DNA from: Verrucomicrobiales bacterium
Lineage (GTDB): Bacteria > Verrucomicrobiota > Verrucomicrobiia > Verrucomicrobiales > DEV007
Assembly: GCA_002698785.1 (NCBI GenBank)
Contig: PAAG01000046.1
Span: 1-64,000 of the forward strand
Direction of reading: 5' to 3'
DNA: 64,000 nucleotides
The notes beneath the pieces are model-generated. The model did no database searches. It was given only the letters and a program-made list of their open reading frames with translations, and was not told the DNA's origin. Made by a program: the position numbers and the translations under genes. This document shows positions 6,790 through 59,975 of this stretch, one piece after another. Each line of letters begins with the position of its first letter. The stretch's first letter is position 1.

Positions 6790-6796
6790 TCAAATA

Positions 6797-6808: not shown

Positions 6809-6823
6809 ATTATAAATCAGTTT

Positions 6824-6853
6824 TTTACAGCTTGTTTTTACACAAGATATCCT
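6824..6853 (+). promoter_or_regulatory. Candidate promoter of the RRM protein gene
   Basis: TTTACA (6824-6829) and TATCCT (6848-6853) are separated by 18 bp in an A+T-rich stretch. Start of transcription near 6860 would give a 5' leader of over 400 nt before the RRM protein start. Confidence 0.4.
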
Positions 6854-7998: not shown

Positions 7999-8011
7999 TT
8001 CTACCTGAATT

Positions 8012-8056
8012 TTTTGCTCAAACGCCGAATCGATCTAATGGTCGGTTCGGCGTTTT
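8012..8056 (+). terminator. Intrinsic terminator after the RRM gene
   Basis: A 9-bp perfect stem AACGCCGAA/TTCGGCGTT (8021-8029 with 8046-8054), 16-nt loop, followed by a T-rich tract. It separates the RNA-binding protein gene from miaA, whose ATG is 13 bp downstream. Confidence 0.85.
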
Positions 8057-8071
8057 TCTTTTCCCCTTTTC

Positions 8072-8977: not shown

Positions 8978-9025
8978 AAAGCCAATCTTGCAATCCTACT
9001 CGGTTCACCGCAAAGTCCCCCTCCC

Positions 9026-10129: not shown

Positions 10130-10148
10130 GTCCCCCAATCACCCCGTA

Positions 10149-11507: not shown

Positions 11508-11552
11508 TTGCGTGATTGCTTGCTGGAACTCGCTGGCTCACACTCGGCCAGT

Positions 11553-13397
11553 ATGATCCCCGTTCGAGTCCCTCTTGTTGCTGCTATTTTCGCCTCCACG
11601 ATTTGCGCAAAGGCTGAACCGCTGGTGCTGGAAGAAGATTTTCTTCATCTGAGAAACGGTGACATTAGGGAATGGACCCATTACGCCGAAACACCGGATG
11701 GGAAGGAACTGAATCTTACTTTCGATCTCGAGAATCCAGATCAATACCAAATTCTAACCTTACGCCAGGAAGGCACGAAGCAGAGTTGGCTCGTACACCT
11801 GAACGACCAGCGCATCGCGGTTCTCCAGCGGGATCACAACCATCAGGAACAAGGCATTGCGATTTCAGAAAACTTGCTCAAGAAAAAAGGCAATACGCTA
11901 CGAATCTTCACCGAATCTGAAGACAGCGACGACATTCAGGTCGGTGAAATCACTCTTCACGATTCGGTATGGTCGGAGGAAATGGCCTCCCGGACTAGAG
12001 AATTGCAACAAGCTCGCGGATACACCCGGGCCCTTCCCAAATTTACAGCCGAGCTCATACTGAAAGCCGTTTCTGCAGAAACAGGGGAATCTATCCCCTG
12101 CCGGTTCACCATCCTTGATGCCGAGACAGGGGCACTCGTTCTACTCGATGCGGAATCCGATGATCGCACCGCGATTCGAGAAGGAGTGGTTTACTCCCTC
12201 GATGGAAACGCTTCGGTGGGAGTTGCAGGAAATGAGGAGACACCTCGGACCTACAATGTTTACTGCGGGCGCGGTTTTGAATACAGTCTGGAGAATCGCA
12301 AGGTCACCATTGATAGCTCGAATTCCAGTAAATCCCTAACATTCGAATTGGCTCGCGAAGTCGACACACCCGGACTGGTCGCCTGCGATCCTCACCTGCA
12401 CACCTTCGAGTTTGATCGCCATGGAGACTGCACCCTCACGGAGCGCCTCATCTCCATTGCCGGTGAAGGTGTCGAGCTCCCCGTATCAACCGGTCACGAC
12501 AAGCATATCGAATATCGGCAGGAAGCTGCCCGAATCGGAGCGAATCGCTGGATGACAACCATCCTCGGTTGTGAAGTGACGACGAGCCTGGGTCACTTTA
12601 ACACATTCCCTGTCGAACCCGGCTCTCCCACAGCACAACACAAACTCCGTCCGTGGAATCAGATCTTTCAAAATATCTTCGCGACACCTGGAGTCCGCGT
12701 CTGCATGCTGAACCACGGCAGAGATGTCCACCGAGGGTATACCCCCCTCTCTCCCGAGCATTTCGACGCGGAGATAGGAGTCTTCAAAGAAGGCCTGAAA
12801 CTCGAAGCCAATGCGATGGAACTGATCAATTCCGGGGCGCAGCAGACAGACCCGATGCAATTGGTACATGACTGGATGTCACTCTTACAAAGCGGCCACA
12901 AGATTGCAGGTATTGGATCCAGCGACAGTCATACTGTCAATTTCGCCATTCCCGGACAGGCACGCACTTACATCGAAAGCGACGACAGTGATCCGAGTAG
13001 CTTCGATGTGAACGCAGCTGTCGACTCGCTGCTCGCGGGGAATGCTCATACCAGCTTCGGTCTTCTCACATTGGCAGAAATTGAAGGAGACACTCTCACC
13101 GTAACAGTTCACGGACCAAGTTGGACAGAGGCAGATCGACTTCGCATTTATCGAAATGGCGAACTTGCTAAGACCCTGGAAATTGAACAAGCTGACGGAA
13201 AGAAAGCGGGAGAAAAATATAGCGTAAGGATTTCTATTTCAGATCTTAACGCCATTCAGGGGGACCTCCTCGTCTCCGTTGCCAGTGGTCCTGGGATCTC
13301 GGAGGGATGGTGGCCGATGATGCCGCCCTACCAGCCTGACGCACCGGTATACGAACCTTTCGTAATGGGAATCAGCAAAGCGATCTGGCTACCGTGA
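11553..13397 (+). CDS. Secreted CehA/McbA-type PHP-fold metallohydrolase
   Basis: 614 residues from the ATG at 11553, which begins a signal peptide (MIPVRVPLVAAIFASTICAKA). A beta-rich N-terminal region (about 25-270) is followed by a PHP-like domain: DPHLHTFEF supplies the HxH metal pair, STGHDKHIEYR the next ligands, and GSSDSHTVN a late Asp-His pair. This arrangement is that of the CehA/McbA metallohydrolases, which act on esters or phosphoesters; the substrate here is unknown. The frame also opens upstream to 11508, directly after the channel stop, but that would bury the signal peptide. Ends 1 bp from the convergent cytochrome gene. Confidence 0.8.
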   Translation: MIPVRVPLVAAIFASTICAKAEPLVLEEDFLHLRNGDIREWTHYAETPDGKELNLTFDLENPDQYQILTLRQEGTKQSWLVHLNDQRIAVLQRDHNHQEQGIAISENLLKKKGNTLRIFTESEDSDDIQVGEITLHDSVWSEEMASRTRELQQARGYTRALPKFTAELILKAVSAETGESIPCRFTILDAETGALVLLDAESDDRTAIREGVVYSLDGNASVGVAGNEETPRTYNVYCGRGFEYSLENRKVTIDSSNSSKSLTFELAREVDTPGLVACDPHLHTFEFDRHGDCTLTERLISIAGEGVELPVSTGHDKHIEYRQEAARIGANRWMTTILGCEVTTSLGHFNTFPVEPGSPTAQHKLRPWNQIFQNIFATPGVRVCMLNHGRDVHRGYTPLSPEHFDAEIGVFKEGLKLEANAMELINSGAQQTDPMQLVHDWMSLLQSGHKIAGIGSSDSHTVNFAIPGQARTYIESDDSDPSSFDVNAAVDSLLAGNAHTSFGLLTLAEIEGDTLTVTVHGPSWTEADRLRIYRNGELAKTLEIEQADGKKAGEKYSVRISISDLNAIQGDLLVSVASGPGISEGWWPMMPPYQPDAPVYEPFVMGISKAIWLP

Positions 13398-13398
13398 T

Positions 13399-16251
13399 TC
13401 ACTTGGCATTCAAGAGCCATCCCAGCAGATTGCGAAAATCATTCTCTGAAATCGCCGTTCCGAAATTTGGTGGCATCAGGGACACATTGGAAACCTCTCG
13501 CTTCGCGACATCGCTCTTCAGTATGCGGTGTTGCACACCTCCGCCGTCGATGACCTGAAGCACCTCGCCCTTCTCCGACACGACAAATCCGCCCGTCACT
13601 GATCCATCTTTCATCGTAAGCAAAGTCGATCGAAAATGAGCATCGACGTTTCGATTCGGATCAAGGATGTCTTCAGCCAGTCGCTCAACTCCACGGTTCC
13701 CAATTCCATCGAGCTGAGGACCGGTGATCCCGCCCTCTCCACCGACTCGGTGGCAGGCCGCGCAGTAGGTTTGAAAGACTTTCTTACCTGCGTCCACATT
13801 GATTCGTCCCTGCTCGTAGCCCATCACTCGCCTGACGATCAGCTTATCGACGTTCTTCTGTTCCTCACGAGTCATCTCCCTTGGCGGAGGTTTCGGCCCC
13901 GAAGGTAGATAGGGACGGAGTTTATCACGGAGATCCGCAGGAGCCGCGACCTTCAGCAATTCAGCCAATCGCCGAAGAGCAATCATGCGCTTGTTATCTT
14001 CTCGAAACGATTCCACGTCTATTCCTTCCGCTCCTGCTAAGCGAGTGACGCCTATCCAGGCGAACGCTTTTCCATTGTCGCCGTCCACTATCTCGAGCCT
14101 GACAGGCTTTCCTTCGAGTTTCTTTGTGTCCCACGTGGTCAGTTTACACACGTCGCTTCGTGGCGGATACGCTCGATACAGTTCTTTATCTGTCTTGTCG
14201 TCTACCAGGCACACATAGCTTTTGTTGTGAGGCTCCTCCTTTGGAAAACCGCGATGCCCGCATACCCAGAAGCTGATCTCAGGCGAGCACGAGAACGGTC
14301 GCGATTGTAATATGCCCATTCTCTGTTCCGCCTGCTTTTCTCCCTTCGGCAAACTCGAAAGCACAGAGACTTCTTTCCCGTCCTCACACTTTCTCATTTG
14401 CATCACCCAGGGCTGATTTGAATCTGGCGCCTTGGGATGAGAGACTGCTTTCCATGTTGCCTTGTCAGTTCCCCCACTCTTCTCAAGAAAGACGCGAGCC
14501 AGGTCTCCTGCCCATTCCATCAGGGCGCCTTCCTGATATACTGTTCCCCGTTCTTCCAATCCCATCGCAAGAGCATCCAAGGCCTCGAACTGCTCAGCGA
14601 GTGATGCATCCGAAGCACGGTAGAATGACATGCATTCCTGTCTCACTCCGAAGTCCGCATACCGCCCAATGTGAACCAAATACGCGCTTTTCTTCTCGCC
14701 CCAGAACTCACGCTGTCGATTGAGCCAGCGAGCCGATTCGGCAGAAGGCACGGCCAGAGCAATGCCAAGAACCTCGTCACGATGTTCGTCTCCGACTTCG
14801 CTGAATGCCCCCGGAGTCTTCAGGCACTCACGCAGGGCCAGCCGGATCGAGTGAACCAGATGAGTATCTTCAGTATCCGTTGTGGTCAGAGAATCCAGCA
14901 TTGGCGGTATTGCTTCTTTGGTTGGATTTGAATAGATCGCATCTGTCGCAGCGCGCCTGAGAAAAGGAGAAGGGTCGCTCAAATCTGAAATTGGCTCCTT
15001 AGACTCTAATCGTTCAGGAAACGTTTGTCTCTGCGCCTTCATCCCTCCCTTTTTGACGATTCGCCAGACTCGGCCCCGTTCTCGATCTCGGCCAGGATGA
15101 TCGAGTTTCACTTCGTAGTGTCCGATAATTCGATTGTAGAAATCGGCTACATACACCGCCCCATCCGGCCCAATTGTCAGGTCCACAGGTCGAAACCACG
15201 GATCTTCGCTCACGACGAAGTCAGGCTGTTCGATCGCGTTAGGAGTCGTGCCTGTGAATTCGACTCGATCCGCATTGATTCGAGAGGTCACCGGATTGCC
15301 GATAAGGATGTGGTCATTCCATTCCTTTCCCCAGACATCGTCCTCAAGATATACGATCCCGGCGATACCGGTCGAACCGTGGGAATGCTCCAGCATCTCC
15401 GGTGCGAAACCCAGTCCATCGTGCGGTTTTTTGAAACTTGGATAATACGCTCCACGCAACAATTGATAGATCGGTGCGCTGTGGCAGTCAGCACTGTAGA
15501 GAAAACCTCGTCGATCAAACGCGAGCCCAAACGGATTCACCTGCCCCCACGACCAGATCTCTACCTTGGACGCGTCGGGACGAAAGCGGAAGACGTTCCC
15601 AGAATTCAAATCGAGCGTGCTGCCATCCTTGGCGATGAAATGACTGGTATTGTTGAACCCATGTGTTGCGTATACCCAGCCGTCGGGCCCCATCCGAAAG
15701 CTGGAGCACATGCCGTGTGTGTCGTCCTCATACCCCAAAGGACCAAATAACACCTCTCGATGATCCGCCTTTCCATCCCCCGTTGAGTCTGCGAAATACC
15801 AGATGTTCGGAATACTCCAGGCGATGCATCCCATCTTGTGTTCTGGTCGATGCCACGGCAGAACCCCAGTCGGGATATTGAGGCCATCGGCAAAGTCTGA
15901 AACTGTGTCAGCCTTTCCGTCTCCGTCAGTATCCTCAAGAATCTTGATCGCATCCCGACTCTCCGCGACCCGAGTTCCTTTCTCATCAGACCATCGAGTG
16001 TTCTCTGCTGCGTAGGGATACTCTACCGTGGAGGAAACCCAGAGCCGCCCTTCGTCATCGAAAGCGATATTGATCGGCTTGTTGATCATCGGCTCCGCGG
16101 CAAATAGCTGAACTTCGAAACCCTCGGGAACGATCAACGCGGCCTTTTCTTCCTCAGGAGAAAGCGGATCAGACTCTCTCACAAGTCGATCATCCGCGAA
16201 CAATCCGAGAGTGGATAAACAAAACGAAACCGATAGAAACAAACGCACCAT
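13399..16251 (-). CDS. PVC-type haem-binding CxxCH protein (membrane-bound dehydrogenase/cytochrome c fusion)
   Basis: 950 residues with a signal peptide (MVRLFLSVSFCLSTLGLFA). Residues about 30-400 form the six-bladed-propeller PVC dehydrogenase domain that opens with IVPEGFEVQLFAAEP and IAFDDEGRLWVSSTVEYPY. A middle part (about 400-800) looks like HEAT-like and NPCBM-like material. The C-terminal cytochrome c domain has one haem site CAACH near residue 835, with SLMPPNFG as the probable distal Met. In this family the propeller is thought to oxidise sugars or polyols and pass electrons to the haem; substrate unknown. It is next to a secreted unknown gene and sulfatases, fitting use of sulfated polysaccharide. 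Confidence 0.9.
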   Translation of the reverse strand: MVRLFLSVSFCLSTLGLFADDRLVRESDPLSPEEEKAALIVPEGFEVQLFAAEPMINKPINIAFDDEGRLWVSSTVEYPYAAENTRWSDEKGTRVAESRDAIKILEDTDGDGKADTVSDFADGLNIPTGVLPWHRPEHKMGCIAWSIPNIWYFADSTGDGKADHREVLFGPLGYEDDTHGMCSSFRMGPDGWVYATHGFNNTSHFIAKDGSTLDLNSGNVFRFRPDASKVEIWSWGQVNPFGLAFDRRGFLYSADCHSAPIYQLLRGAYYPSFKKPHDGLGFAPEMLEHSHGSTGIAGIVYLEDDVWGKEWNDHILIGNPVTSRINADRVEFTGTTPNAIEQPDFVVSEDPWFRPVDLTIGPDGAVYVADFYNRIIGHYEVKLDHPGRDRERGRVWRIVKKGGMKAQRQTFPERLESKEPISDLSDPSPFLRRAATDAIYSNPTKEAIPPMLDSLTTTDTEDTHLVHSIRLALRECLKTPGAFSEVGDEHRDEVLGIALAVPSAESARWLNRQREFWGEKKSAYLVHIGRYADFGVRQECMSFYRASDASLAEQFEALDALAMGLEERGTVYQEGALMEWAGDLARVFLEKSGGTDKATWKAVSHPKAPDSNQPWVMQMRKCEDGKEVSVLSSLPKGEKQAEQRMGILQSRPFSCSPEISFWVCGHRGFPKEEPHNKSYVCLVDDKTDKELYRAYPPRSDVCKLTTWDTKKLEGKPVRLEIVDGDNGKAFAWIGVTRLAGAEGIDVESFREDNKRMIALRRLAELLKVAAPADLRDKLRPYLPSGPKPPPREMTREEQKNVDKLIVRRVMGYEQGRINVDAGKKVFQTYCAACHRVGGEGGITGPQLDGIGNRGVERLAEDILDPNRNVDAHFRSTLLTMKDGSVTGGFVVSEKGEVLQVIDGGGVQHRILKSDVAKREVSNVSLMPPNFGTAISENDFRNLLGWLLNAK

Positions 16252-47311: not shown

Positions 47312-47434
47312 AGCAAATCACGGGCCGCATGGCAATACCGGGAAAGTCCTGAAGAAGTATTCAGAAAAATATTTCTACATTTTCTAAGAATCAGAATCGT
47401 CAGGTGTCGATTCCCTATGAGAGGATGATAATCA

Positions 47435-48013
47435 GTGAATCGCCCCGGACAAACAACCCCCGAGCCCACGGTAAAAGCGATGCCCGCCCCCGCACGACCT
47501 GAAACGGCGGAAGCGAAGCCATCGCTCCGGGAAGTATTCGACGCAGAGGAAAGCCCTCTGCTGCGATACGCCTTTTCGCTGGTCGGGAAACGGGCAGTAG
47601 CGGAAGACCTCGTCCAGGAGGTGTTTCTACAACTCCACAACCACTGGGACTCCGTCGAGAATCCCCGGGCATGGCTCTACCGCAGCGTCCGCAACCGAGC
47701 ATACAACCACCACCGCGACCACAAGAAGGAAATCCTCACAAACAACCACGAATCACACGACAACGATTCTCCCGACACACCGACAGCCCTGCTTCACCGT
47801 ATGGAAGCTGCCGGCTTTCTGCGCCTCCTTCTCGCAGAACTGGAAGAAGCCGACCGCCAACTCATTCAATTGAAATACTTCGAAGATCTCAAGTACCGCG
47901 AAATCAGCGAACGAACCGGACTCAGCATCGGAAACGTGGGATACCGCTTGCATCACCTGCTCAAGCAACTTGCTGAGAAGTTGCGCCAACTCGGAATCGA
48001 TGAAGCGCCATGA
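47435..48013 (+). CDS. ECF-like sigma-70 family RNA polymerase sigma factor
   Basis: 192 residues from a GTG at 47435; GAGAGGATG 11 bp upstream may be the ribosome-binding site. The ATG at 47480 is a possible shorter start. Sigma region 2 is ESPLLRYAFSLVGKRAVAED with LVQEVFLQLHNHW and ENPRAWLYRSVRNRAYNHHR; region 4 is LIQLKYFEDLKYREISERTG and LSIGNVGYRLHHLLKQLAEK, the helix-turn-helix. It resembles the RpoE-like group. It overlaps the next gene by 4 bp, so the sigma factor and its putative anti-sigma protein are coupled. Confidence 0.92.
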   Translation: MNRPGQTTPEPTVKAMPAPARPETAEAKPSLREVFDAEESPLLRYAFSLVGKRAVAEDLVQEVFLQLHNHWDSVENPRAWLYRSVRNRAYNHHRDHKKEILTNNHESHDNDSPDTPTALLHRMEAAGFLRLLLAELEEADRQLIQLKYFEDLKYREISERTGLSIGNVGYRLHHLLKQLAEKLRQLGIDEAP

Positions 48014-51000
48014 AAGACGAACCTCTCCACCCCTATATTGAACCAGAACTGGAAGCCCGCATCGTGGCCCTCGTGCTCGGTGAAGCCTCCGACTTTGAAC
48101 GCGAAGAACTGGAACGCGTGTTCGAAGAGCAGCCCGAGCTCAGACTATTCCACGACCGCATCGAGTCGGCAGATGAGCTATTGAGAGGAATTGCGACCGA
48201 GAGTTCCGACGATTCAGTTTGGAAGTTATCCAAGGAACATCGCACAACAGTCCTCGATACGATCGATCCCAACAGGAAGCCTAAGATTGCCGTTGAAGAG
48301 ATCGACCGGAGCAAAATCCGAAGAGCGAAGTTCCGTTTGGTTCGTAGCGTCGTTACCTCCATCGCAGTTGCCGTAGTAGCCATGCTTCTGGTTGTGGGTG
48401 CCGCAGTCTTCACAGTTAGAGAAGCGAAACGGCCGATGTCAGCAGAGTTATCAGAAAGCATCGTCACTTACTCAGCTTCAGCCGACCGGGAAGAGATGAT
48501 TGAATCTGAGACCCTGTCACGACCTTACGTCCGGCAAACAGTCGACAACTTCGCTGCGATTGATTCTCCGAGCAGCTCAACTGCTACCGATTTCGACACG
48601 CTCGCTTATTCTTATAGCGAAGAACCGTCACCCGAGTCGATTCCGAAGAAGAAATCAGCAGTGAAAGAGCCTTCATTTGCCCCGGTGCAAACGGGCCACG
48701 GAGGAATTCCAGCTGACTCGTTTGACGGGAACAATGGAAGGTTTCATGTAGGTGCCTCCGCGTCCTTTGGAGACGTTGATTCTAAACCAACCCCCGTTCA
48801 GGAAAGCGACCGAACTGAAACCGGCAAAGACAGCCAGACCTGGGTAAATCTTCCCTCGGAAGGAAACTCCAACTCAATTGCTCTCTCGGCGGCCGGTCCT
48901 TCCGGAACGATTGCTCTTGGATCGGTTCAAATTGATGAGAATGCGAGAACCAGGGATCAAGTTGTTCGTCGTGAGCTGCCACTCAAATCCGAGGAAGAAT
49001 TATCCTTCCCCGATTCACCTTCCCTAGCCGACGCTTCAAGTGCAACAGACGAGAGTTTAGTATTCACACGAGAGTATATTGGTGGGGCAAAAGACCTACG
49101 AGGTTTCGACTACCAAGAAGGAAGTCCAAACGACTCGTTGAGTTCTGGGCGAGGCAGTTCGCTTGGCGTAGTTCCCGATGTAGAAGATAAGGTCCCGTTT
49201 CTTGGGGATCTTCCTCAGGTCGGACGACTCTTCTCCAAGACTGACGATTTATCTCGAACGATCGTTGATGCCAGTGGAGGAGAAGGAGGAAATGTTCGCA
49301 TCGGCGGAAACTTCCCAGGCCAGAATAGAGCTTCAGACGGCACAGTCGCATTAGGAGCAGGTGGCGATATCTCGGTAGAATCGAAGAACGGCAGGAAAAT
49401 CTCTATCTCCCCATCTGATGACAATGAGATGGGAGTGCCAAACAACAGCGGAGATATACAGGCCCAGTTGTCTGAAATACGAACAGTTATTGAGAACGAC
49501 GAAAATGAGTCACGCTTGGTAAAACAAGAAGCTTCGCGTTCAAACGAAAAAGAGAATAGTGGCCCACGAGGCAATAATTCCAGCGATCCCGCCCTACCCA
49601 GCCTGGCAAAAAACTACGTTATCCGCCTTCAGGAGCGAGTGAAGAAAGCTGACGAAGCCGCTCTGCGAGGTTCGCAACTCATGGCGGATGGGGACTACCA
49701 GGGTGCGATCGACCAGTATCGCGCTTCGATGGACTTGCTGCCCGATGCACCCGTTACGAATCCTCGTCGTCAGGCTTACACAAAGCAATTCTCCCGTGCA
49801 GGTGTGTTGGAAGCAAGAGGCCATGCCGAAGAAGGGAGATATCCGGAAGCGATCGCGCAAATCGAAGAGATCCTCCAACCCAGCGTTGATCCACAGAATA
49901 TCGACGCAAAGAGGTTAATCGAGCAACTGAACGATCCTGATTATCATTCTCCAGCGCTCACCCCAGAACAACTGGAGCGAGTGCGTCGATTGAAGGTGGC
50001 AAATAAAACAGCTCAAAAATACACCGAACTCGGTGACTTGGAGCGTGCCGGCCGAGAATATCACAAAGCTCTGAATAGCGCTCCCTACAACCTCGCCGCT
50101 CGTCGTGGATTAAAGGAAACGGAAGAGCATCGAATGCACTATTACGATACAGCCTACGATCACACTCGGGCGAAGATGCTTCGAGAAGTAGCCGCCGGTT
50201 GGGAGTCACCTGTCGTCATCCCCTCAGGTGCAATTCCCCAGCCAGATGTCGAAGCGAAATTAAAATCTATCATTTTACCAAGCTTGGAGTTTCAAGAAAC
50301 CCCGTTGGAAGATGCTCTAAGTTTCCTCCAACAGAGAAGCGTTGAACTGGATCCAGATCCAGATGTTGCCGCTAAAGGTGTCAATCTCGTTGTCGATGTC
50401 GGAGAAAACTATGAGGAGATCGCAGAAACTCCCATAACTCTTCGCCTAACTAATGTTCCGTTAGCCGAGGCGCTACGTTACACAACTGCTCTTGCCCGAT
50501 TGGAGTACGACACCGAATCGCATGCCGTCGTCATCGTCCCACATGGCACCAAAGAGGAGACAAAAAAGAAGAAACCGGTCAAGGCTGATAGGCCGAAAAC
50601 CGCTTTGCCACGGCGCAATCGTCGCCCCGCAAAGGCTCCCGCTGGACTCTATGAAACGAAAACCGAAGACGAGCCCTTTTCCACCTTCTCTCTCCACGTT
50701 AGCGACGTTTCGTTTAAGCTCGCCCAAGCGGCTTTGGCGAAAGGTGAATGGCCTGACAAGAACACCGTTCGAATCGAAGAGTTTGTGAATGCCTTCGACT
50801 ACGGTGATCCCAAGCCGACGATGGAAGAGAAGGTCGCTTGTCAGATGGAGCAGGCGGCTCATCCATTTCTCCAGCAGCGGAATATCCTCCGCGTCTCCAT
50901 GCGAACAGCGGCGCAGGGGCGCAATGCTTCGACGCCTCTTCGTCTCACGTTCCTACTCGACAACTCGGGATCGATGGAGCGCTCTGACCGGCAGGAAACA

Positions 51001-51978
51001 GTGCGTCGTGCTTTCTCACTACTTACATCACAGCTAAACGAGAACGATCAGGTCACCCTGATTAGCTTTGCCCGGCAACCCCGGCTTCTTGCAGACAAGA
51101 TAGGAGGAGATCAGGGAAATACATTGATCGATACGATCTCCAATCTTCCCAGCGAAGGAGGCACCAACCTGGAGGCAGCTCTCACTCTCGCCTATGAGAA
51201 AGCCAGAGAGCAACACGATGCGAAAGCACAGAATCGCATTATCCTTCTCACTGACGGAGCGGCAAACCTCGGAAATGCAGAACCGGAGGATCTGGCGAAA
51301 CTTGTCGAGTCGATGCGCAATTCGGGAATCGCCTTCGATGCCGCCGGAATCGGAACGGAAGGCCTGAACGATGAAATACTCGAAGCCCTCACCCGCAAAG
51401 GCGACGGTCGCTATTACTTGCTCGATCGTCCCGAGGATGCCGACGCCGGCTTTGCCAAACAGATCGCAGGAGCTCTTCACCCCGCGGCTGGCAATGTCAA
51501 AGTGCAGATCGAATTCAATCCTAACAGGGTCACCACATACAAACTGCTTGGATTTGAGAAGCACCGACTGAACAAAGAAGACTTCCGAAACGACAAAGTC
51601 GATGCGGCAGAGCTGGCAGCAGAGGAGGCAGGTGTCGCATTGTATCAGTTCCAGCCCGATCCAGAAGGCGAAGGCGATATCGGTTTTGTATCCGTTCGAT
51701 TCCGAGACATGGCGTCAGGAGAGATGGTCGAGCGACGCTGGCCGATTGCCTATCAACCAAATGCTCCAAGGATCGACCAGGCTTCCCCTACCCTACGTTT
51801 AGCCTCTTCGGCAGCGTTTCTTGGCGCCCGGTTGAAGGAAGAACCTCTCGGAGAAGTCGTGGAGCTTGATGCCCTGAGTCAATTCCTCAACGGCCTCCCC
51901 CAACGACTGGAAGAGAACGAAAAGGTCGCACAGCTCCGTGAAATGATCCGGAAGACGCAAGAGATCTCCGGTCGCTGA
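48010..51978 (+). CDS. Anti-sigma-like / TPR / STN / VWA fusion protein
   Basis: 1322 residues. (1) About 1-100: cytoplasmic anti-sigma-like part (ELEARIVALVLGEASDFERE). (2) About 110-136: one membrane helix (VVTSIAVAVVAMLLVVGAAV). (3) About 140-530: disordered Ser/Asp/Glu-rich linker. (4) About 533-720: TPR-like repeats (GSQLMADGDYQGAIDQYRAS, ARGHAEEGRYPEAIAQIEEI). (5) About 755-845: STN/secretin N-terminal type domain (LEFQETPLEDALSFLQQRSV). (6) About 890-1240: YfbK-type VWA, opening FSTFSLHVSDVSFKLAQAAL, MIDAS DNSGS near 983. Each part is known alone; the combination suggests a regulator whose cytosolic end restrains the sigma factor while the periplasmic end senses or builds something. 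Coupled to the sigma gene by ATGA. Confidence 0.85.
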   Translation: MKDEPLHPYIEPELEARIVALVLGEASDFEREELERVFEEQPELRLFHDRIESADELLRGIATESSDDSVWKLSKEHRTTVLDTIDPNRKPKIAVEEIDRSKIRRAKFRLVRSVVTSIAVAVVAMLLVVGAAVFTVREAKRPMSAELSESIVTYSASADREEMIESETLSRPYVRQTVDNFAAIDSPSSSTATDFDTLAYSYSEEPSPESIPKKKSAVKEPSFAPVQTGHGGIPADSFDGNNGRFHVGASASFGDVDSKPTPVQESDRTETGKDSQTWVNLPSEGNSNSIALSAAGPSGTIALGSVQIDENARTRDQVVRRELPLKSEEELSFPDSPSLADASSATDESLVFTREYIGGAKDLRGFDYQEGSPNDSLSSGRGSSLGVVPDVEDKVPFLGDLPQVGRLFSKTDDLSRTIVDASGGEGGNVRIGGNFPGQNRASDGTVALGAGGDISVESKNGRKISISPSDDNEMGVPNNSGDIQAQLSEIRTVIENDENESRLVKQEASRSNEKENSGPRGNNSSDPALPSLAKNYVIRLQERVKKADEAALRGSQLMADGDYQGAIDQYRASMDLLPDAPVTNPRRQAYTKQFSRAGVLEARGHAEEGRYPEAIAQIEEILQPSVDPQNIDAKRLIEQLNDPDYHSPALTPEQLERVRRLKVANKTAQKYTELGDLERAGREYHKALNSAPYNLAARRGLKETEEHRMHYYDTAYDHTRAKMLREVAAGWESPVVIPSGAIPQPDVEAKLKSIILPSLEFQETPLEDALSFLQQRSVELDPDPDVAAKGVNLVVDVGENYEEIAETPITLRLTNVPLAEALRYTTALARLEYDTESHAVVIVPHGTKEETKKKKPVKADRPKTALPRRNRRPAKAPAGLYETKTEDEPFSTFSLHVSDVSFKLAQAALAKGEWPDKNTVRIEEFVNAFDYGDPKPTMEEKVACQMEQAAHPFLQQRNILRVSMRTAAQGRNASTPLRLTFLLDNSGSMERSDRQETVRRAFSLLTSQLNENDQVTLISFARQPRLLADKIGGDQGNTLIDTISNLPSEGGTNLEAALTLAYEKAREQHDAKAQNRIILLTDGAANLGNAEPEDLAKLVESMRNSGIAFDAAGIGTEGLNDEILEALTRKGDGRYYLLDRPEDADAGFAKQIAGALHPAAGNVKVQIEFNPNRVTTYKLLGFEKHRLNKEDFRNDKVDAAELAAEEAGVALYQFQPDPEGEGDIGFVSVRFRDMASGEMVERRWPIAYQPNAPRIDQASPTLRLASSAAFLGARLKEEPLGEVVELDALSQFLNGLPQRLEENEKVAQLREMIRKTQEISGR

Positions 51979-52055
51979 CAATTCTCTTACAACTCACTCA
52001 CAATCAAATGACAACTTCCGAATCGAAATCCGGAAAAGTCGCCTGACGGTATCTT

Positions 52056-55000
52056 ATGATGAAAATCCCACTGCTGCTCAACCTTCTTACCTTCCTGGCA
52101 GTCGTTTCTGTCGCCCGGGAAAATCCTGACAAAGCCAAAGAGGAACCTACTTCTGAAAATTCTGGTGGTAGAATCATTATTGAAGCGCCGCAGGATATTC
52201 CGGAACCACCCGTTTTTTACTCTGCCGATATCGACAACCAAGTCACCATCGATCCGAGCAAGGTGAGCTACACGGTCACTGCAAATGTTAAGATTTTACA
52301 AGGAAACGCGACCACCTTCTCATTCCACACGAGAGGAACTGCTGAAGTCCTGGGAGTCGAAGGCAAGACGGTAGAGGCTTGGGCAGTGCGGTGGGATTCT
52401 GAGAAAAAGCGATACATCGAAATCACGGCCAAACCACCAAGCGATCCGAAGAAGCCGGAGACGAATCACACCTTTTCCATTCGCATGTCCGACAAGGACC
52501 TTTCGCTTCCCTCTGCCCAGACCATCACCAACCTTGCTGATGGAAGTGAGAGCATTGCCGGATTCAACGAGGTGGTTTCGATCCGCTACACCAATGGCGT
52601 GATTGGAAAGGTGTCCACCATGGAGGGTTTTCTTCCTTTGACTGAAGCCGAGGAGAATACGACGCGCCTCCAGACTGCGACGGGAGGAAAGCTTGTTGTT
52701 CAACTCAACCGAAGCGGAACCTCCCCTGCTCCGGTCGAACTCTCGCGCTTTGACCTGGAGGGAGAACTGAGTCCTGACGGAAAGTCGATGACCTTTCACC
52801 TGAAGACTACTGCCACGGTTTCCAAAGCAGGTGCATCCGTTGCGATTCTAAGCGGCAACGCTGCCTTCCAGGAAATTCCTGACAAAGCGCCCTACCAATT
52901 GCGGGTGAAAGCAAATCCCAAGGGTCCTGTCAGCTATGAGATGACCTTTGATAAAGAAGGCACCTACCCCATCGAGTTGGACTTTGTTGCCCGTGTGAAA
53001 ACGGAAGGTGGGTGGAAAAAACTGGATTTCGCCGTCGCTTCGGGAGCCGTGGCTCCGATTCGTGTCAGTGGCTTTTCCGGCGAAGTAGAGTTTCTCGAAA
53101 ACGCGGCTGTGGTTCCCGAGAAGAATGCCCGATCAAAAGACACCTTCGATGGATTCATTCCAGCGACCGGTCAGTGCATGCTAGCGTGGAAGGAATCCCG
53201 CAAAATCGGAGAAGGAAAACTTTTCTTCAGCACTTCGGCTCAGATCGAAACCACGGTGAGTGCCGGGCTATTGCGCCAGCGCCATGACATTGAATACCGG
53301 GTGTTGCAAGGCGAACTCGACGAGCTGAAGCTGGATCTCATCGGACCGGGTGAAGTTCTCGATGTTCAGGGAACTAATGTCGTCGGATGGAGCCTCGACA
53401 ACGCCAACGATCAGAAGGTTCTAAACATTCGACTCGGTCAGGCAATCACAGAGACGGGCACCCTGTCCATTCGAACCCAGCTCCCGATGGATGCGTTTCC
53501 GGTTCGAGTGAAAGGGATTCGCATTACTCCGCAGGACTCCGTCCGCCACTCAGGCTACATCCGTCTTTCCAATGAGAGCAGCGTTCGCCTTGAACCGGCA
53601 GAAATCAGTGGCCTTACCCAACTGGCGCCTGAGCAGTTTCCCGGGCAAGCACTCGAAGCGCGCCAGGTCTTCGTGTTCCGTTTCCCTGCCGCTGAATATG
53701 ACTTTGAAGTGTTGGCTGACAGGATTCAGCCGGAAGTCAATGTTTCAGAGCTGGTGCTCTACCAGCTTTCAGAAACCGACCGCACGATCACCGCAGACGT
53801 GGAGTTTGATATCCGGGAGGCGCCCATTCGCGAATGGGACCTGCTCGTTCCCGAAGACTACTCGGTTGTATCGGTATCCGGTGCGAGCGTGGCGGACTAC
53901 ATTGCCGCAACGGAAACTGAGAACGGAGTTCGAAATCTAAAAATCATTTTCTCCTCAGACATCATTGGTCGGCAGTTGGTCTCACTGAATCTTGAGAAGA
54001 GCGTCCCTGCAGCGGCGGGCGACTGGGTTCTGCCAGCTCTTCAATATCCTGATGCAGCATCCGTTCGCGGAGACATCGGAATTGTGGGTGCTCCGGGATT
54101 TCGCATTTCCGCTGGTGAAACCGATCTGCTCGTTGAGAAGCCGCTTTCCTATTTTCCCAAGCAGGTCGCGAACCTTCAGCAGGCGTTTCGGATTCGTGAG
54201 CCAGGATGGTCGGCTACCATGCAGGTCGAACTATTGGAAAAAAGCGTTCAAACAGACGTGTTCCACCTTTACTCACTGAGCGATGGAACGGCTTATGGAA
54301 GCGTTCTCATCAACTACTTTGTCACCGGCGCCCCCGTCTCCGAACTCCAGATCACCACTCCAGCCGACCTTGGAAATGTCGCAGTTGAAGGAAAAGATGT
54401 ACGCAGTTTCAGACGCGATGGAGATGTTCTGATTGTCACCCTTCACCAACCTGTCATAGGCCCCTACACTCTTCTAGTCACCTTTGAAGAGAAGCTCGAT
54501 AGCGAAACTGGGACGTTGCAACCGGGCCGAGTGGCCCCTAATGACGTCCAGGGAGAGCGAGGCTATTTGCAGATTGTGAGTCCGATGCAGGTGCAAACGG
54601 ATGTGAAGCAAATCTCGGATGACCTCTTGAAACTCGATGCTCTCGAGCTTCCCGCAGAGTTCCGACTGCTCAGTGCGGCTCCGTCACTGGGTGCCTGGCA
54701 ATACACAGATCGTCCTTTCGAGCTTTCTGTCCAGATCACTTGGTTCGAGCCTGGAAAAATGGTTAGCCAAGTGGTTGAATTCTCGGAGGTTACCAGCCGT
54801 ATTTCCTCTGAAGGAGAGCTCGTATCCGACCTGGTTTATTACGTAAAATCGAGAGGGCATCGTGTGTTGAAACTGCAATTACCGGAGTCAGTTCGCCTTT
54901 GGGCGGTAACTGTCGGCGGAGAATCTGTCACCGCTCGTCAATCGGGTGACACCACCTTGATTCCCCTGCCTGGAGGAACAGACCCCAATGTTCCGGTCGA

Positions 55001-58000
55001 AGTCAATCTGCGAATCGGAAGACCAGCCGTGGAAGGCACACGTCCCGTAGCGGCACTTCCTCTCGTTGAAGCTCCGGTATTGAAAACCGAGTGGACGATC
55101 ACCGGCGACGAACAGCACGTGGTGATCCCCACAGGCGGCACCGTCGAACCTCCCGTGCCCGTTCTTCCCTCCTCCGGACTTCGTTGGCTCAGTTTGCACG
55201 GGATCGGACAGCTCGCCTTCATTCTTGGCCTTGCCGCGATTGGTATCTGGATGAGTCGTAAGCCGAGCTTTCTCGGGTTTCTTGGACTCTGCTTTCTCCT
55301 CGCTGCTGTGGTTGGCGCACTGGGAGCGACATTGAATGCCTACCATTCGGCAGGCCGCCCACAACCGCTCCAATTGAGCCTGCCACTGGTAATGTCAGGA
55401 GAACTGGTGGAGCTGCACCTTCGCACTCTCGCCTTATGGAAAGCCAATCTGTCGTGGCTCGGTATTATACTGATCGTCGCGGGAGTCGTCGTCGCGATTG
55501 GATCCTTCCTCCGCTCACCGAAGGGTGGTGTTTTTCTCTGGAGAGCAGGTGGCGGACTTCTCATCGCATTGGGGATTCTCACCCAGCGAAACGGTGCGCC
55601 CTGGTTCTTTCTTTTCCTGGCCGCAATTTTGTCCGTTGGACTACTACTTCCACGCTTGCGTTTCTGGTGGAAAGAAGGAAAGCGCAGACGTTCACTGAAA
55701 AGAGAGAAAAAAAAGGATCTTGATGCCGATTCTTCTCCCACAGAAGGAACAGCCACAGCATCCATCCTGATTGGTGCACTATTGATTTTCGGCTCGGGCA
55801 CAGTCGCGAAAGCTCAGGGAGTTGTTCCCGAAGGGTTCGCGGCCGCTGACTCCATCAAGCAGGAATGGTCAATCACCCATGAGAACGGCCGATTGACTGG
55901 AAAAGGCACGGTTCAAGTATCCGGGAAACCGGGAGATAGCTTTCTCCTCCTGCGCGCGCCAGCCACTTTGACGGAGTTTCAAGGAGAAGGGCTGCGATTG
56001 ACACGACAAAATCTCGCTGAACACGGCCTCTCTTACATTATCACCATTCCCGAAAAGGAAGAGAAGGCCGTGGAAGTCGTCAATCCTTTCGATTTGGTCA
56101 CTCCCGCTACCGAGAAAACTGCGATTGAGGCGACCTTCGAGTTCCAAGTAGAGATTGTGGATCTGAAAGCCGGGTTTCTCCTTCCGACCGGACCAGCTGC
56201 GGTGCAGGAGATCAAAGCTACCTACGACCGCCCTGACTGGATTTTTTCCAGCGCAGCCGCGGTCCAGGTCAAAACGATCCAAGATGAAAAGGCCTCCTCT
56301 GCTACCTTGCTTCTAGCGCCACAGGCAAAGACAACGATCCAGTTGCAACCCAAAGCGCGCGACGTGGCATCGGAAGAAACCCATTTCTTCACCGAGATTT
56401 CGAACCTGTATATCCCGAATCCGGGAGTCATTGATGGTCGTCACAAGATTCACATCCGTCCTGCACAGGGGCAGGTGTCGTCGCTGACCGTCCAAATACC
56501 CGAAGGCATTACGGTTAGTGAAGTTACGGGACCTATCGGAGCCTGGCAATTTGACGCTGATTCGAGAAACCTTGAACTCAGTATAGAACCAGCTCAGGCA
56601 GAGAGTTTCGACATCATTGTCGAGACACAGAGAGGGCTGGATCCGCTGCCCACCGATGCGGCGCTTGAGCCTCTGCGTGTCATGAATGCGGCTGGCGAAG
56701 TTGGTTTGCTCGCAATCGCCTTCAGCGATGACGCTCAGCCGGAGAAGGCAGAATCCGAAACAATGTCTCCGGTAAATCTCGGTGACTTCTCAGCCGAACT
56801 GCTGCCTAACGATAAGACGGTTTTACATCGTGTGTATCGATATGGCTCAGAGGGAGGCTCGCTAGCGTTACGAGTTGCTCCGGTTGCTCCGGAAGTGCGC
56901 GTCGCCAGCAAACAGATTCTATCGCTGGGTGACGAACGTGTCGTTCTCGCTGTGAATTTCCTCGCTGACGTTACACGTGCCGGGCTGTTCAAGTTGAGCT
57001 TTCCCCTGCCAGACGGGCTTGAAGTGGAATCACTCACCGGTGATGCACTTCACCACTGGGCTGAGCTTTCCGAGGGTGAGTCACGCCAGATTGTGCTTCA
57101 CCTGAACGGAAAAACAATCGGTTCTCAGAGTTTCTCCCTCACCCTGACGGGACCCTCTCCCGAAGAGATTTCCGAATGGACCATCCCCCACTTTCAATTG
57201 AATGAAGCAAATCGCCAAACGGGAGAGTTGGTAGTGAAACCGACGACGGGAATACGACTTCGCACTGTGGACCGTCAGAACGTGTCCGAGATCGATCCCC
57301 GCTCACTCGGTGACGGCACCCAGGGCTCGCTAGCCTTCCGACTGCTCCAGCAGGACTGGAATCTCGTCCTTGGAATAGAGAAGCTCGACCCGTGGGTAAC
57401 TGGGCAGGTTCTTCATGAAGTCTTTCTTCGCGAAGGACAGACACGCACTTCGCTCTTTGGAAACTTCAAGATACAGAACGCTTCCGTGCGCTCGCTGAGA
57501 GTGAAACTCCCCATTACAGGAGAGGAAGAAGTGAAAACACTACGGGCCAGCGGCAGTGCCGTAAGTGATCTTGTCAGGACAGCCCCGGACTCTGATGTAT
57601 GGGAGATTCAGTTCAAGCGCAGAGTGGTCGGCGATGTCGATGTTCGCATCGAATACGAGCGGCGCGGCGAACGTGAGAACCAGACTGAATCCCTCTCGCC
57701 TGCCGAATTTCCCGAGGCGCGACAGCTTGCCTACTACTTCGGCATTCGCGCAGGTGGAAGGCTTGAAGTTCGCCCGGAAGAACTGACACGAGGCTGGCAG
57801 AATGCCGACTGGAATACTGTTCCCCAGAAACTTCGCGAAGCCGGAAATCGAAACGCACCGGTTGTCACACTACGCACTGTGAATCCGGAGCAGCCGCTTG
57901 TGGTGGAGGCAAAAAGTCATTCTCTTGCCGAAGCCCTCAAACTCCGCGTCGCGAATGGCAAGCTGACGACGGTTCTCTCCCCTTTTGGAGACCAGCTCAC

Positions 58001-59021
58001 CTCTGTCGATCTGACCATGGAAGTCATCCAACGTAGTAGCCTCTCTATTGGGCTACCCGCGAATGGCGAACTGTTCAGCATCTTTGTAAATGGAGAAAGC
58101 GTTCATTCCGTTCGGCAGGGCGACACCTGGCAGTTTTACATTTTACCAGGAGCCAACGACCGTACTGCGAATGTGAAATTCTTCTACTCCGTGCCCGGCG
58201 AAAAGCTCAGCCATGTCGACCTGACGAGCCCACAACTCGACGTGCCCCTCGAGAATATCGAATGGAGTGTTGTAGCACCGAAAGGGTTCGAACTGACAGA
58301 CGACGGCGGCAACCTGAAGTTGAAGCAACAGCAGAACTGGTCGCGTTTTGACAAGTCGAGTTACCTGAACAAAGCCAGTGGACAGAGGCGCGAGCAGGCG
58401 CAGAAGGCCGCCGAATTGCTGGAGCAAGCCAATGACCTTCTCCAGAAAGGTGAACAGAGCAAAGCGCGTTGGGCATTCAACAGCGTCGCGAACCAATATG
58501 GCCTCGATGCCGCCTCGAACGAAGATGCGCGAGTGCAGTTGGAGAATCTCCAGACCCAGCAGGCCATCGTTGGGCTCAACACCCGAAGGCAACGAGTCTA
58601 CATCGACAACGGAGGCGAAGAGCAGGTCAACCAACCCAACCAGCAAATCCAAGCCGGAATTACCGAGAACCGGATTCTTCAAGAGGGCGACCTCAACTAT
58701 CGTCCCCAGGAATTGAGCCAGCTCTTACAAGGCAACACGGATGAGGACAATGCTGCGCTACAGCGTATCGCTGGCCGTCTGGTTCAGCATCAGCGGACAA
58801 CCGTTCCGGCCCCTCAAGCCGTGACGATAACGCTGCCTGAAGAAGGAACGGTGTATACCTTCACACGCACGATACAAGTAGAAGAGAATGCACCGCTTGA
58901 GTTGGATCTGTCCTTCTCAAAATCGTATCGAATGAGCTTGGGGCGCACAGTTCTTCTGGCGCTACTTCTCTTCGCGTTGTTTGCCGGCTTCGCGAGGACG
59001 GCGCGGTGGAGAACGGCGTAA
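52056..59021 (+). CDS. Giant two-part membrane protein of the sigma/VWA locus
   Basis: 2321 residues. Signal peptide (KIPLLLNLLTFLAVVSVARE). First half (about 25-1040) is a long beta-rich periplasmic stretch, with recurring sandwich-like units (for instance YTVTANVKILQGNATTFSFH, ITADVEFDIREAPIREWDLL). A membrane block of five helices (about 1045-1215) leads to a basic linker (WWKEGKRRRSLKREKKKDLD). Then a sixth helix with an AxA-type end (IGALLIFGSGTVAKAQ, near 1250) opens a second beta-rich half of about 1000 residues, closed by a C-terminal helix (GRTVLLALLLFALFAGFART). No family recognised. Gap to the VWA gene 77 bp, same strand; probably one operon and one system. Confidence 0.75.
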   Translation: MMKIPLLLNLLTFLAVVSVARENPDKAKEEPTSENSGGRIIIEAPQDIPEPPVFYSADIDNQVTIDPSKVSYTVTANVKILQGNATTFSFHTRGTAEVLGVEGKTVEAWAVRWDSEKKRYIEITAKPPSDPKKPETNHTFSIRMSDKDLSLPSAQTITNLADGSESIAGFNEVVSIRYTNGVIGKVSTMEGFLPLTEAEENTTRLQTATGGKLVVQLNRSGTSPAPVELSRFDLEGELSPDGKSMTFHLKTTATVSKAGASVAILSGNAAFQEIPDKAPYQLRVKANPKGPVSYEMTFDKEGTYPIELDFVARVKTEGGWKKLDFAVASGAVAPIRVSGFSGEVEFLENAAVVPEKNARSKDTFDGFIPATGQCMLAWKESRKIGEGKLFFSTSAQIETTVSAGLLRQRHDIEYRVLQGELDELKLDLIGPGEVLDVQGTNVVGWSLDNANDQKVLNIRLGQAITETGTLSIRTQLPMDAFPVRVKGIRITPQDSVRHSGYIRLSNESSVRLEPAEISGLTQLAPEQFPGQALEARQVFVFRFPAAEYDFEVLADRIQPEVNVSELVLYQLSETDRTITADVEFDIREAPIREWDLLVPEDYSVVSVSGASVADYIAATETENGVRNLKIIFSSDIIGRQLVSLNLEKSVPAAAGDWVLPALQYPDAASVRGDIGIVGAPGFRISAGETDLLVEKPLSYFPKQVANLQQAFRIREPGWSATMQVELLEKSVQTDVFHLYSLSDGTAYGSVLINYFVTGAPVSELQITTPADLGNVAVEGKDVRSFRRDGDVLIVTLHQPVIGPYTLLVTFEEKLDSETGTLQPGRVAPNDVQGERGYLQIVSPMQVQTDVKQISDDLLKLDALELPAEFRLLSAAPSLGAWQYTDRPFELSVQITWFEPGKMVSQVVEFSEVTSRISSEGELVSDLVYYVKSRGHRVLKLQLPESVRLWAVTVGGESVTARQSGDTTLIPLPGGTDPNVPVEVNLRIGRPAVEGTRPVAALPLVEAPVLKTEWTITGDEQHVVIPTGGTVEPPVPVLPSSGLRWLSLHGIGQLAFILGLAAIGIWMSRKPSFLGFLGLCFLLAAVVGALGATLNAYHSAGRPQPLQLSLPLVMSGELVELHLRTLALWKANLSWLGIILIVAGVVVAIGSFLRSPKGGVFLWRAGGGLLIALGILTQRNGAPWFFLFLAAILSVGLLLPRLRFWWKEGKRRRSLKREKKKDLDADSSPTEGTATASILIGALLIFGSGTVAKAQGVVPEGFAAADSIKQEWSITHENGRLTGKGTVQVSGKPGDSFLLLRAPATLTEFQGEGLRLTRQNLAEHGLSYIITIPEKEEKAVEVVNPFDLVTPATEKTAIEATFEFQVEIVDLKAGFLLPTGPAAVQEIKATYDRPDWIFSSAAAVQVKTIQDEKASSATLLLAPQAKTTIQLQPKARDVASEETHFFTEISNLYIPNPGVIDGRHKIHIRPAQGQVSSLTVQIPEGITVSEVTGPIGAWQFDADSRNLELSIEPAQAESFDIIVETQRGLDPLPTDAALEPLRVMNAAGEVGLLAIAFSDDAQPEKAESETMSPVNLGDFSAELLPNDKTVLHRVYRYGSEGGSLALRVAPVAPEVRVASKQILSLGDERVVLAVNFLADVTRAGLFKLSFPLPDGLEVESLTGDALHHWAELSEGESRQIVLHLNGKTIGSQSFSLTLTGPSPEEISEWTIPHFQLNEANRQTGELVVKPTTGIRLRTVDRQNVSEIDPRSLGDGTQGSLAFRLLQQDWNLVLGIEKLDPWVTGQVLHEVFLREGQTRTSLFGNFKIQNASVRSLRVKLPITGEEEVKTLRASGSAVSDLVRTAPDSDVWEIQFKRRVVGDVDVRIEYERRGERENQTESLSPAEFPEARQLAYYFGIRAGGRLEVRPEELTRGWQNADWNTVPQKLREAGNRNAPVVTLRTVNPEQPLVVEAKSHSLAEALKLRVANGKLTTVLSPFGDQLTSVDLTMEVIQRSSLSIGLPANGELFSIFVNGESVHSVRQGDTWQFYILPGANDRTANVKFFYSVPGEKLSHVDLTSPQLDVPLENIEWSVVAPKGFELTDDGGNLKLKQQQNWSRFDKSSYLNKASGQRREQAQKAAELLEQANDLLQKGEQSKARWAFNSVANQYGLDAASNEDARVQLENLQTQQAIVGLNTRRQRVYIDNGGEEQVNQPNQQIQAGITENRILQEGDLNYRPQELSQLLQGNTDEDNAALQRIAGRLVQHQRTTVPAPQAVTITLPEEGTVYTFTRTIQVEENAPLELDLSFSKSYRMSLGRTVLLALLLFALFAGFARTARWRTA

Positions 59022-59066
59022 TCCAGTATCTAACAAGAAACATTCGGATCCTGTATCACTGTGGAG

Positions 59067-59975
59067 ATGAGACTGAATAAACTCCTTCTGCTGGCGGCTC
59101 TAACCGGAGCAATATCACACCACGCGTTTTCCGAAGAGAAGAAAGCGATTGAGCCTACCATGGCAGATGTCCCCTACGACGAATACGACCTGACCAAGAT
59201 CGATTTCTGGAAAGCTGAGGGCGAAGGACCTCGCCCCCTTCTCGTTTACATACATGGTGGAGGATGGATCGGTGGGGACAAGTCCAAGGGCGTTCCCAAT
59301 CCGGAATACTATCTGGGTAAAGGAATTTCTATTGCTGCTGTGAATTACCGCCTGACAGGCACTGATCCCCTTCCCGTTCCTGTCTACGATGCTGTTCGTG
59401 CGCTTCAGTTTCTGCGTTCGAAAGCGGATGAATGGAACATCAACAAGGAGAAGGTGGTTTTGACCGGAGGAAGTGCAGGAGCTTGCACTTCGATGTGGAT
59501 TCTCTGCCACGATGATATGGCGAACCCAGATTCGGATGACCCGGTCGAACGCGAATCGTCACGTGTCTCGGGAGCTGTTGTCGGATCGGGACAAACCTCC
59601 ATCGACCCCAAGCAGATCGAGCCATGGCTTGGACCCAACGTTCTGAAGCACAAAATGATCAATATGGCCGTTGGTGAACCCACCATTGAGGGAGCTCTCG
59701 AAAACTACGAGAAGCACAAGGACCTCTATCATGAGTTCTCTGCTTACAACCATGTCACCAAAGACGACCCGCCACTCTTGATGACCTATGGTGCTGACAT
59801 GTCATTGCCCTCGAAAGATGCCGGCCACGGAATCCACCACCCGGTTTACGGAGTGAAGATGAAAGAGAAAGCTGACTCCGTAGGAATGCCCTGCTATCTC
59901 CTGATCTCAGGACAGCCAAAGGAAGGGAAATACAAGGATATGCCTTCCTTCATCGAAGACATCCTTTTGAACTGA
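59067..59975 (+). CDS. Secreted alpha/beta hydrolase (esterase/lipase, BD-FAE-like)
   Basis: 302 residues from the ATG at 59067 (a GTG two codons earlier is possible). Signal peptide MRLNKLLLLAALTGAISHHA. Carboxylesterase/HSL-type features: oxyanion-hole motif VYIHGGGWIGGDKSKG, the nucleophile elbow GGSAGA (about 137), and a late Asp-His pair in TYGADMSLPSKDAGHGIHHP. The HGGG motif, small size and secretion fit feruloyl- or acetyl-esterases acting on polysaccharides. Followed immediately by a convergent DUF1501 gene with no intergenic space. Confidence 0.88.
   Translation: MRLNKLLLLAALTGAISHHAFSEEKKAIEPTMADVPYDEYDLTKIDFWKAEGEGPRPLLVYIHGGGWIGGDKSKGVPNPEYYLGKGISIAAVNYRLTGTDPLPVPVYDAVRALQFLRSKADEWNINKEKVVLTGGSAGACTSMWILCHDDMANPDSDDPVERESSRVSGAVVGSGQTSIDPKQIEPWLGPNVLKHKMINMAVGEPTIEGALENYEKHKDLYHEFSAYNHVTKDDPPLLMTYGADMSLPSKDAGHGIHHPVYGVKMKEKADSVGMPCYLLISGQPKEGKYKDMPSFIEDILLN

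Follow-up and report, generated by a model that had tools for sequence, protein, structure and literature searches.

An ECF sigma factor, a membrane anti-sigma/VWA protein and a giant membrane protein form a conserved trio in Verrucomicrobiota and Planctomycetota that is likely to report on the cell envelope

We analyzed a window of 64,000 nucleotides from a Verrucomicrobiales bacterium (positions 1 to 64,000 of contig PAAG01000046.1, assembly GCA_002698785.1) and describe here three consecutive genes on its forward (+) strand, the strand of every window feature given below. The first gene (47435-48013) begins with a GTG start codon and codes for a sigma factor of 192 aa of the extracytoplasmic function (ECF) type. 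The second (48010-51978) codes for P2, a membrane anti-sigma and YfbK-type VWA protein of 1322 aa, and the third (52056-59021) for a two-part membrane protein of 2321 aa, the giant, which has full-length relatives in both Verrucomicrobiota and Planctomycetota. An initial annotation, made from the sequence alone, had placed an ATGA overlap between the first two genes and 77 bp between P2 and the giant, and its coordinates are exact. It had also proposed that the sigma factor, the anti-sigma protein and the giant form an envelope system, a proposal that is supported by the conservation of the three genes as a unit.

Gene order was counted at loci in which the giant is full-length and is preceded by 6.5 kb or more of sequence. 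The relatives of the giant were drawn from the window's order, from its phylum and from named genomes, the best 80 of 258 named relatives being kept. When all the upstream open reading frames (ORFs) were scored with profiles, the sigma gene and P2 were both found upstream of the giant, on the same strand, in 103 of 105 loci. After removal of duplicates, the full trio occurred in the same order, on one strand and with short gaps, in 88 of 90 distinct loci; the two exceptions (L216 and L217) represent a small-genome clade with a very long branch. The outcome named beforehand as fatal to a three-gene system, a giant that stands without the other two genes in most genomes, was thus not obtained. 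Conversely, 190 genomes of the order were scanned with the P2 N-terminus, and a comparison of two match lists by hand showed that 44 of the 46 genomes with a strong match to it also have the giant. Every domain of the trio is known by itself, as would be expected if an ordinary ECF/anti-sigma pair had come to lie by chance beside an unrelated giant gene. Because the arrangement is kept in nearly all the distinct loci, across two phyla and with short gaps, we reject chance adjacency, the probability of which appears negligible.

The product of the first gene has Pfam matches to Sigma70_r2 at residues 37-98 (8.7e-15) and to Sigma70_r4_2 at residues 129-179 (4.6e-13), as well as a match above cut-off to the NCBIfam model TIGR02937 (2.6e-26). 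It consists of regions 2 and 4 only, without region 3, which is the layout of an ECF sigma factor. A motif search revealed an ECF-type promoter ahead of the operon (47376-47415), with a -35-like TTTTCTAAGAA and a -10-like GGTGTCG, 20 bp upstream of the sigma start codon. In a dyad search of 99 non-redundant regions upstream of the sigma gene, the best dyad had 37 occurrences, as compared with at most 9 in shuffled sequences. The refined motif, an A/T-rich stretch and then TTTCYAAGRAW, 12 bases and GNGTCTT, outscores every shuffled region in 88 of the 99. In the window, the promoter is the sole strong site within 64 kb (22.7 bits, the next site scoring 13.2), and just 2 of 100 loci have a second strong site. 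The conserved motif before the operon has the -35/-10 form of an autoregulatory ECF promoter, suggesting that the sigma factor probably transcribes its own operon. In two relatives, G118 and G101, the promoter pattern is commoner than the control (15 vs 1 and 16 vs 2, respectively), and the highest-scoring additional sites are found 41-84 bp ahead of genes whose products have signal peptides or membrane anchors. Possibly, judging from these sites, a small regulon of exported or membrane-anchored proteins exists in G118 and G101. Promoter-like sites of this kind, ahead of genes for exported or membrane-anchored proteins, were recorded in the two relatives at L299, L301, L305, L316 and L327.

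The initial annotation had described one end of P2 as anti-sigma-like. In an AlphaFold2 model, the N-terminus of the protein (residues 1-85; 48010-48264), which is predicted to be cytoplasmic, forms helices at residues 12-22, 28-40 and 42-64, followed by a linker and a helix at residues 75-85, with a predicted local distance difference test score (pLDDT) above 95 in the bundle. A three-helix bundle, a linker and a fourth helix make up the layout of class I anti-sigma domains (PMC7406223), and this is the layout seen in the model. In a Foldseek search of the P2 N-terminus against the PDB, RskA, MucA, RslA and ChrR accounted for 17 of the 21 rows, and VIA-align gave Z scores of 6.1 for RslA, 5.6 and 5.4 for MucA, 4.8 for RskA and 3.7 for ChrR. 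The zinc motif Hx3Cx2C is missing from the P2 of the window, the first 100 residues of which contain no cysteine; its absence does not remove P2 from the class, since class I members without zinc have been reported (PMC7406223). Moreover, zf-HC2, the anti-sigma zinc finger, is found above its curated Pfam cut-off at the matching place in distant orthologues of P2 (L203, L205 and L218). Together, the modeled fold and the distant orthologues bear out the earlier description, and we conclude that the N-terminus of P2 has a predicted class I anti-sigma fold. The other result named beforehand as fatal, that this part would not be predicted to bind sigma region 2/4, was not encountered in these fold comparisons. 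A single transmembrane helix follows at residues 118-136 (48361-48417; hydropathy 2.85, preceded by basic residues). A helix at residues 104-139 of the model covers this segment, and most relatives of P2 have a transmembrane helix at about residues 100-200.

At its other end (residues 884-1296; 50659-51897), P2 carries vWF_A, VWA and YfbK_C domains (Pfam PF12450, 3.2e-16; PF00092, 7.7e-17; PF12034, 4e-25). All three are above cut-off and stand in the order found in the YfbK family. As had been noted earlier, the VWA has a metal ion-dependent adhesion site (MIDAS), and the residues that form it, D984, S986, S988, T1052 and D1082, show no variation across 33 relatives.

No significant match to the giant was found in Pfam or NCBIfam, or by sequence searches of the PDB with either the single sequence or a profile. 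Its signal peptide, central transmembrane group and C-terminal transmembrane helix agree with its earlier description as a two-part membrane protein. A first periplasmic array of beta domains, resembling M1 N-domains and ribophorin in an AlphaFold2 model (residues 25-1025; 52128-55130), is followed by six central transmembrane helices assigned by hydropathy, with a basic stretch before the last (residues 1046-1251; 55191-55808). By topology, a second periplasmic part comes next (residues 1252-2294; 55809-58937), in which a helical segment around residues 2105-2180 is conserved, and the protein ends in a C-terminal transmembrane anchor, also assigned by hydropathy (residues 2295-2313; 58938-58994). 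The model, built for residues 25-1215 with 82 relatives (pLDDT 91), shows an all-beta array and then helices, the central helices being seen up to residue 1215. Among solved structures, ribophorin I/Ost1 matched it best, with Z scores of 14.5-15.8 over 310-337 residues. The root-mean-square deviation (rmsd) of the top match (Z 15.8 over 319 residues) is 21 Å, indicating that the ribophorin domains match the giant singly, at differing angles. The N-domains of M1 aminopeptidases match residues 365-531, 534-702 and 878-1101 of the model, with Z scores of about 12 and rmsd values of 3-4 Å. Because the giant has neither the HExxH nor the GxMEN motif of M1 metallopeptidases, we read the modeled protein as a scaffold of repeated domains and not as an enzyme. 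In one relative (G009; L078, 3411-10427), a single in-frame TGA divides the giant gene into two ORFs.

Two genomes, G006 (one contig) and G011, lack the giant and have retained the sigma and anti-sigma genes. In the P2 of both, model positions from about 88 to 281, which comprise the VWA core with the MIDAS, are deleted, and the flanking vWF_A and YfbK_C are kept. A third genome, G023, has the sigma factor and an anti-sigma protein with a different extracytoplasmic part and no VWA. Loss of the giant thus accompanies loss of the VWA core, which ties the VWA to the giant and is our best evidence that the one serves the other. The same observation bears on another view of the giant, namely that it is an output: an envelope protein with a structural or adhesive role, produced at the command of the sigma factor, while the anti-sigma-VWA protein senses some other signal. 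On this view, the operon would keep up the supply of envelope parts in a self-reinforcing manner. Such a role is in line with the place of the giant gene, downstream in an operon with a promoter that fits the sigma factor, and with the fact that the candidate extra targets in relatives are likewise exported proteins. However, that the anti-sigma domain stays when the giant and the VWA core are lost suggests that the sensor depends directly on the giant, and we regard the giant as an output as rather unlikely, although the roles of output and input are mutually compatible. The loci recorded for sigma/anti-sigma pairs without the giant are L293 (11659-14297), L294 (610-2566) and L295 (6846-8536), two with the VWA core cut from P2 and one with an unrelated extracytoplasmic domain.

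Between the membrane helix and the VWA block, P2 has a variable extracytoplasmic region of low complexity (residues 140-880; 48427-50649), the length and content of which differ greatly among orthologues, even among close relatives. Within this arm, residues 528-850 (49591-50559) are a TPR-STN piece of an Amuc_1098-type pilus secretin, equivalent to residues 44-412 of the genome's own secretin (C21:12250-14913). An NCBIfam model of the Amuc_1098-family type IV pilus secretin (NF042912, 9.8e-92) identifies residues 528-851 as the N-terminal part of such a protein, and residues 517-799 are 74% identical to the secretin of the same genome, to which the piece is sister in a tree (support 93/92). 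A C-terminal secretin motif, equivalent to residues 808-834 of the own secretin (67% identity), is found out of order at residues 388-414 (49171-49251). This 27-aa motif and residues 528-851 are the only secretin matches in the P2 of the window; the TPR gave a weak Pfam match. A complete secretin pore domain was not detected in P2 (score 308, against a cut-off of 750), and P2 is not a secretin. Thus, the TPR and STN domains of the initial annotation are present, but they are not a conserved part of the system: they belong to a repeatedly captured piece of secretin that is variable and absent from the planctomycete copies.

Between one and four pieces of secretin, often out of order, were seen in P2 across 17 genomes, and in 13 of these the best match is the secretin of the same genome. 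Examples are the secretin parts 55-263 in G147 (83% identical), 182-269 in G064 (84%) and 537-617 in G118 (75%), and four scattered parts in G102. Pieces are present in 45 of 110 distinct P2 proteins, none of them planctomycete, and one TPR-plus-helix module (secretin residues from about 200 to 260) is shared by 35 of the 45. In a tree, the pieces group among the secretins of their own lineage, with at least seven label changes. A single ancestral TPR-STN domain in P2 was rejected as the sole explanation by an approximately unbiased test (p-AU 1.2e-9), the pieces nesting among secretins; repeated gene conversion of an old segment is possible as an alternative to repeated capture. Piece and secretin share 65-88% protein identity in most pairs (54-57% in two), and synonymous sites are near saturation in most pairs. 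High protein identity at near-saturated synonymous sites suggests that the pieces are apparently under purifying selection, and the synonymous divergence indicates that the captures are not recent; the piece in the window may be older than genus-level splits. Own-genome searches with four P2 arms recovered almost nothing but secretin and its relatives. With verrucomicrobial arms, the other donors recovered were a single Wzz/GNVR-type tyrosine kinase and, by weak matches (34-42%), a family of proteins of about 740 aa. The P2 of G118 carries a piece of its own kinase of this type (66%). Own-genome searches with planctomycete P2 arms found no donor gene.

Such pieces could be neutral filler, in a long disordered arm that tolerates in-frame insertions, derived mostly from an abundant and often transcribed gene. 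The low complexity of the arm and its unlike length and content in close relatives would agree with filler, but the protein identity retained at mostly near-saturated synonymous sites, the recurrence of one module and the almost exclusive recovery of secretin and its relatives by the four P2 arms make this explanation improbable. Alternatively, the captured pieces may dock the anti-sigma protein to the machinery of the type IV pilus or to partners of this machinery, in which case the system would report assembly or misassembly of the secretin. The frequency of the pieces, their shared module, their origin from the lineage's own secretin and the apparent purifying selection all point in this direction. 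Moreover, no planctomycete P2 has a piece, and in four genomes with a planctomycete P2 no secretin of the Amuc_1098 family was found. On the other hand, the planctomycete copies do without pieces, as do many of the verrucomicrobial ones, and some genomes carry other secretin parts or the piece of tyrosine kinase, so we hold a watch on the secretin to be doubtful, if clearly better placed than filler.

The trio is found in Verrucomicrobiota and Planctomycetota, among the named hosts being Rhodopirellula, Rubripirellula, Stieleria, Neorhodopirellula, Fuerstiella, Roseibacillus, Haloferula, Akkermansiaceae and Opitutaceae. In a midpoint-rooted FastTree tree of the giant, all 33 planctomycete rows form one clade within Verrucomicrobiota, adjoining the window's own family. 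This nesting inside verrucomicrobial diversity suggests transfer between the phyla, a single transfer of the trio to Planctomycetota being the simplest reading. Deeper planctomycete copies of the giant may exist beyond the best 80 of the 258 named relatives.

Several other genes at or related to the locus were recorded. A BD-FAE type alpha/beta hydrolase with a signal peptide (59061-59975) begins 39 bp past the giant, on the same strand; it is not conserved beside the giant in relatives and was rejected as a fourth member. A distant orthologue of P2 (L205, 5236-8556) has DUF4159 in its variable arm, and in L132 a stretch of 33 residues matches DUF1559. Residues 636-817 of the secretin, and no other part of it, are matched with about 45-55% identity by many ORFs of about 250-420 aa (G000:C29:34100-35496 and similar places in relatives). 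A related pair of giant-like proteins, of about 1200-1300 aa and 1300-2770 aa, is encoded at L083-L088 and at L298 (G142:C156:36000-52000; 6624-15303). The 1300-2770-aa partner carries TPR/STN pieces of secretin, which at L298 match the own secretin best (184 bits, vs 92 and 76 for two others). No sigma gene was found near these pairs, and a candidate sigma ORF in L085 proved to be a SelR domain.

Taken as a whole, the evidence makes it likely that the three genes form an autoregulated ECF sigma switch that signals the state of the cell envelope. The cytoplasmic N-terminal domain of P2 would hold the sigma factor inactive. One helix of P2 would cross the inner membrane and, outside, the long variable arm would end in the YfbK-type VWA with its metal site intact. 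The giant would be an array of beta domains, anchored in the inner membrane and reaching into the periplasm, that is the partner of the VWA. A change in the contacts between the arm, the giant and other envelope parts would cause the anti-sigma domain to release the sigma factor, and where pieces are present the best candidate for such an envelope part may be the type IV pilus secretin. The freed sigma factor would then transcribe the operon in which it is encoded and, probably, a small number of genes whose products are exported. We infer the contact between VWA and giant, the trigger, the release of the sigma factor and the regulon; an inward direction of signaling is plausible. It also seems conceivable, though with even less confidence than for the docking of the pieces to the pilus machine, that the sensor was built by repeated copying of pieces of the envelope machine that it monitors, with parts of the own pilus secretin, and in one case of a capsule kinase, joining or competing there and the metal-binding VWA coupling to a giant periplasmic scaffold.

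Several points weigh against a sigma switch of this kind. The Foldseek E-values for the anti-sigma domain of P2 are weak (best 0.55), as is expected from its being so small. In the window's own genome the promoter pattern was counted 20 times, against 16 for the control, and this lack of excess gives no sign there of a regulon that extends past the operon. In G011, the locus runs up to the edge of a contig, and the similar borders of the VWA deletions mean that the losses in G006 and G011 may share one origin. Finally, the sigma/anti-sigma and VWA/giant complexes are putative, as is the step, by a protease or otherwise, that would release the sigma factor.

The trio resembles the class I pairs RskA-SigK, MucA-AlgU, RslA-SigL and ChrR-SigE (PMC7406223) in that an ECF sigma factor is followed by a membrane anti-sigma protein with a three-helix bundle and a fourth helix, and probably in the autoregulation of the operon. 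Unlike these pairs, it has a variable arm with secretin pieces, a VWA and a co-encoded partner of 2300 aa. P2 shares with the YfbK/VWA-DUF3520 family the order vWF_A, VWA and YfbK_C, with a MIDAS, but its VWA is fused to an anti-sigma domain and a membrane helix. To our knowledge, no function is known for E. coli YfbK. FecIR-FecA surface signaling combines a sigma factor, a membrane anti-sigma protein and an STN-type domain. In contrast, the trio is without a TonB-dependent receptor, P2 has no Pfam match to FecR, and the STN is a part of the anti-sigma protein itself that is confined to some lineages. The Amuc_1098-family secretin of Akkermansia (PilQ) is the most abundant outer-membrane protein of that organism (PMC4960237). 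The likeness of P2 to this secretin family lies in the TPR and STN/N0 segment, with pieces up to 88% identical; unlike that secretin, P2 has neither a complete pore domain nor a signal peptide, and its pieces are partial and out of order. The first half of the giant shares its beta-domain fold with ribophorin I/Ost1 and with M1 aminopeptidase N-domains, but only the fold is shared: identity is 10-17%, the giant has no peptidase domain or HExxH, and its domains are many more. We found no paper that joins VWA/YfbK proteins with ECF anti-sigma factors, and none among those searched that describes a class I anti-sigma domain together with a YfbK-type VWA and a giant M1-N-domain-like array; the main ECF classification and the papers on planctomycete ECF factors lay outside this search, and an earlier description is possible.

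Envelope signaling by ECF and anti-sigma factors is already known; what is unusual is the collage sensor. The envelopes of Planctomycetes and Verrucomicrobia are themselves unusual, and these bacteria have numerous sigma factors that respond to unknown signals; for them the trio offers a defined, testable and probably envelope-sensing unit. It includes a giant that belongs to no known family, and it is present in cultured genera such as Rhodopirellula, Stieleria, Roseibacillus and Haloferula. If functional, the secretin pieces in the anti-sigma arm would represent an unusual sensor design, one assembled from copies of the machine under watch. For the targets of the sigma factor, the conserved promoter provides an immediate handle.

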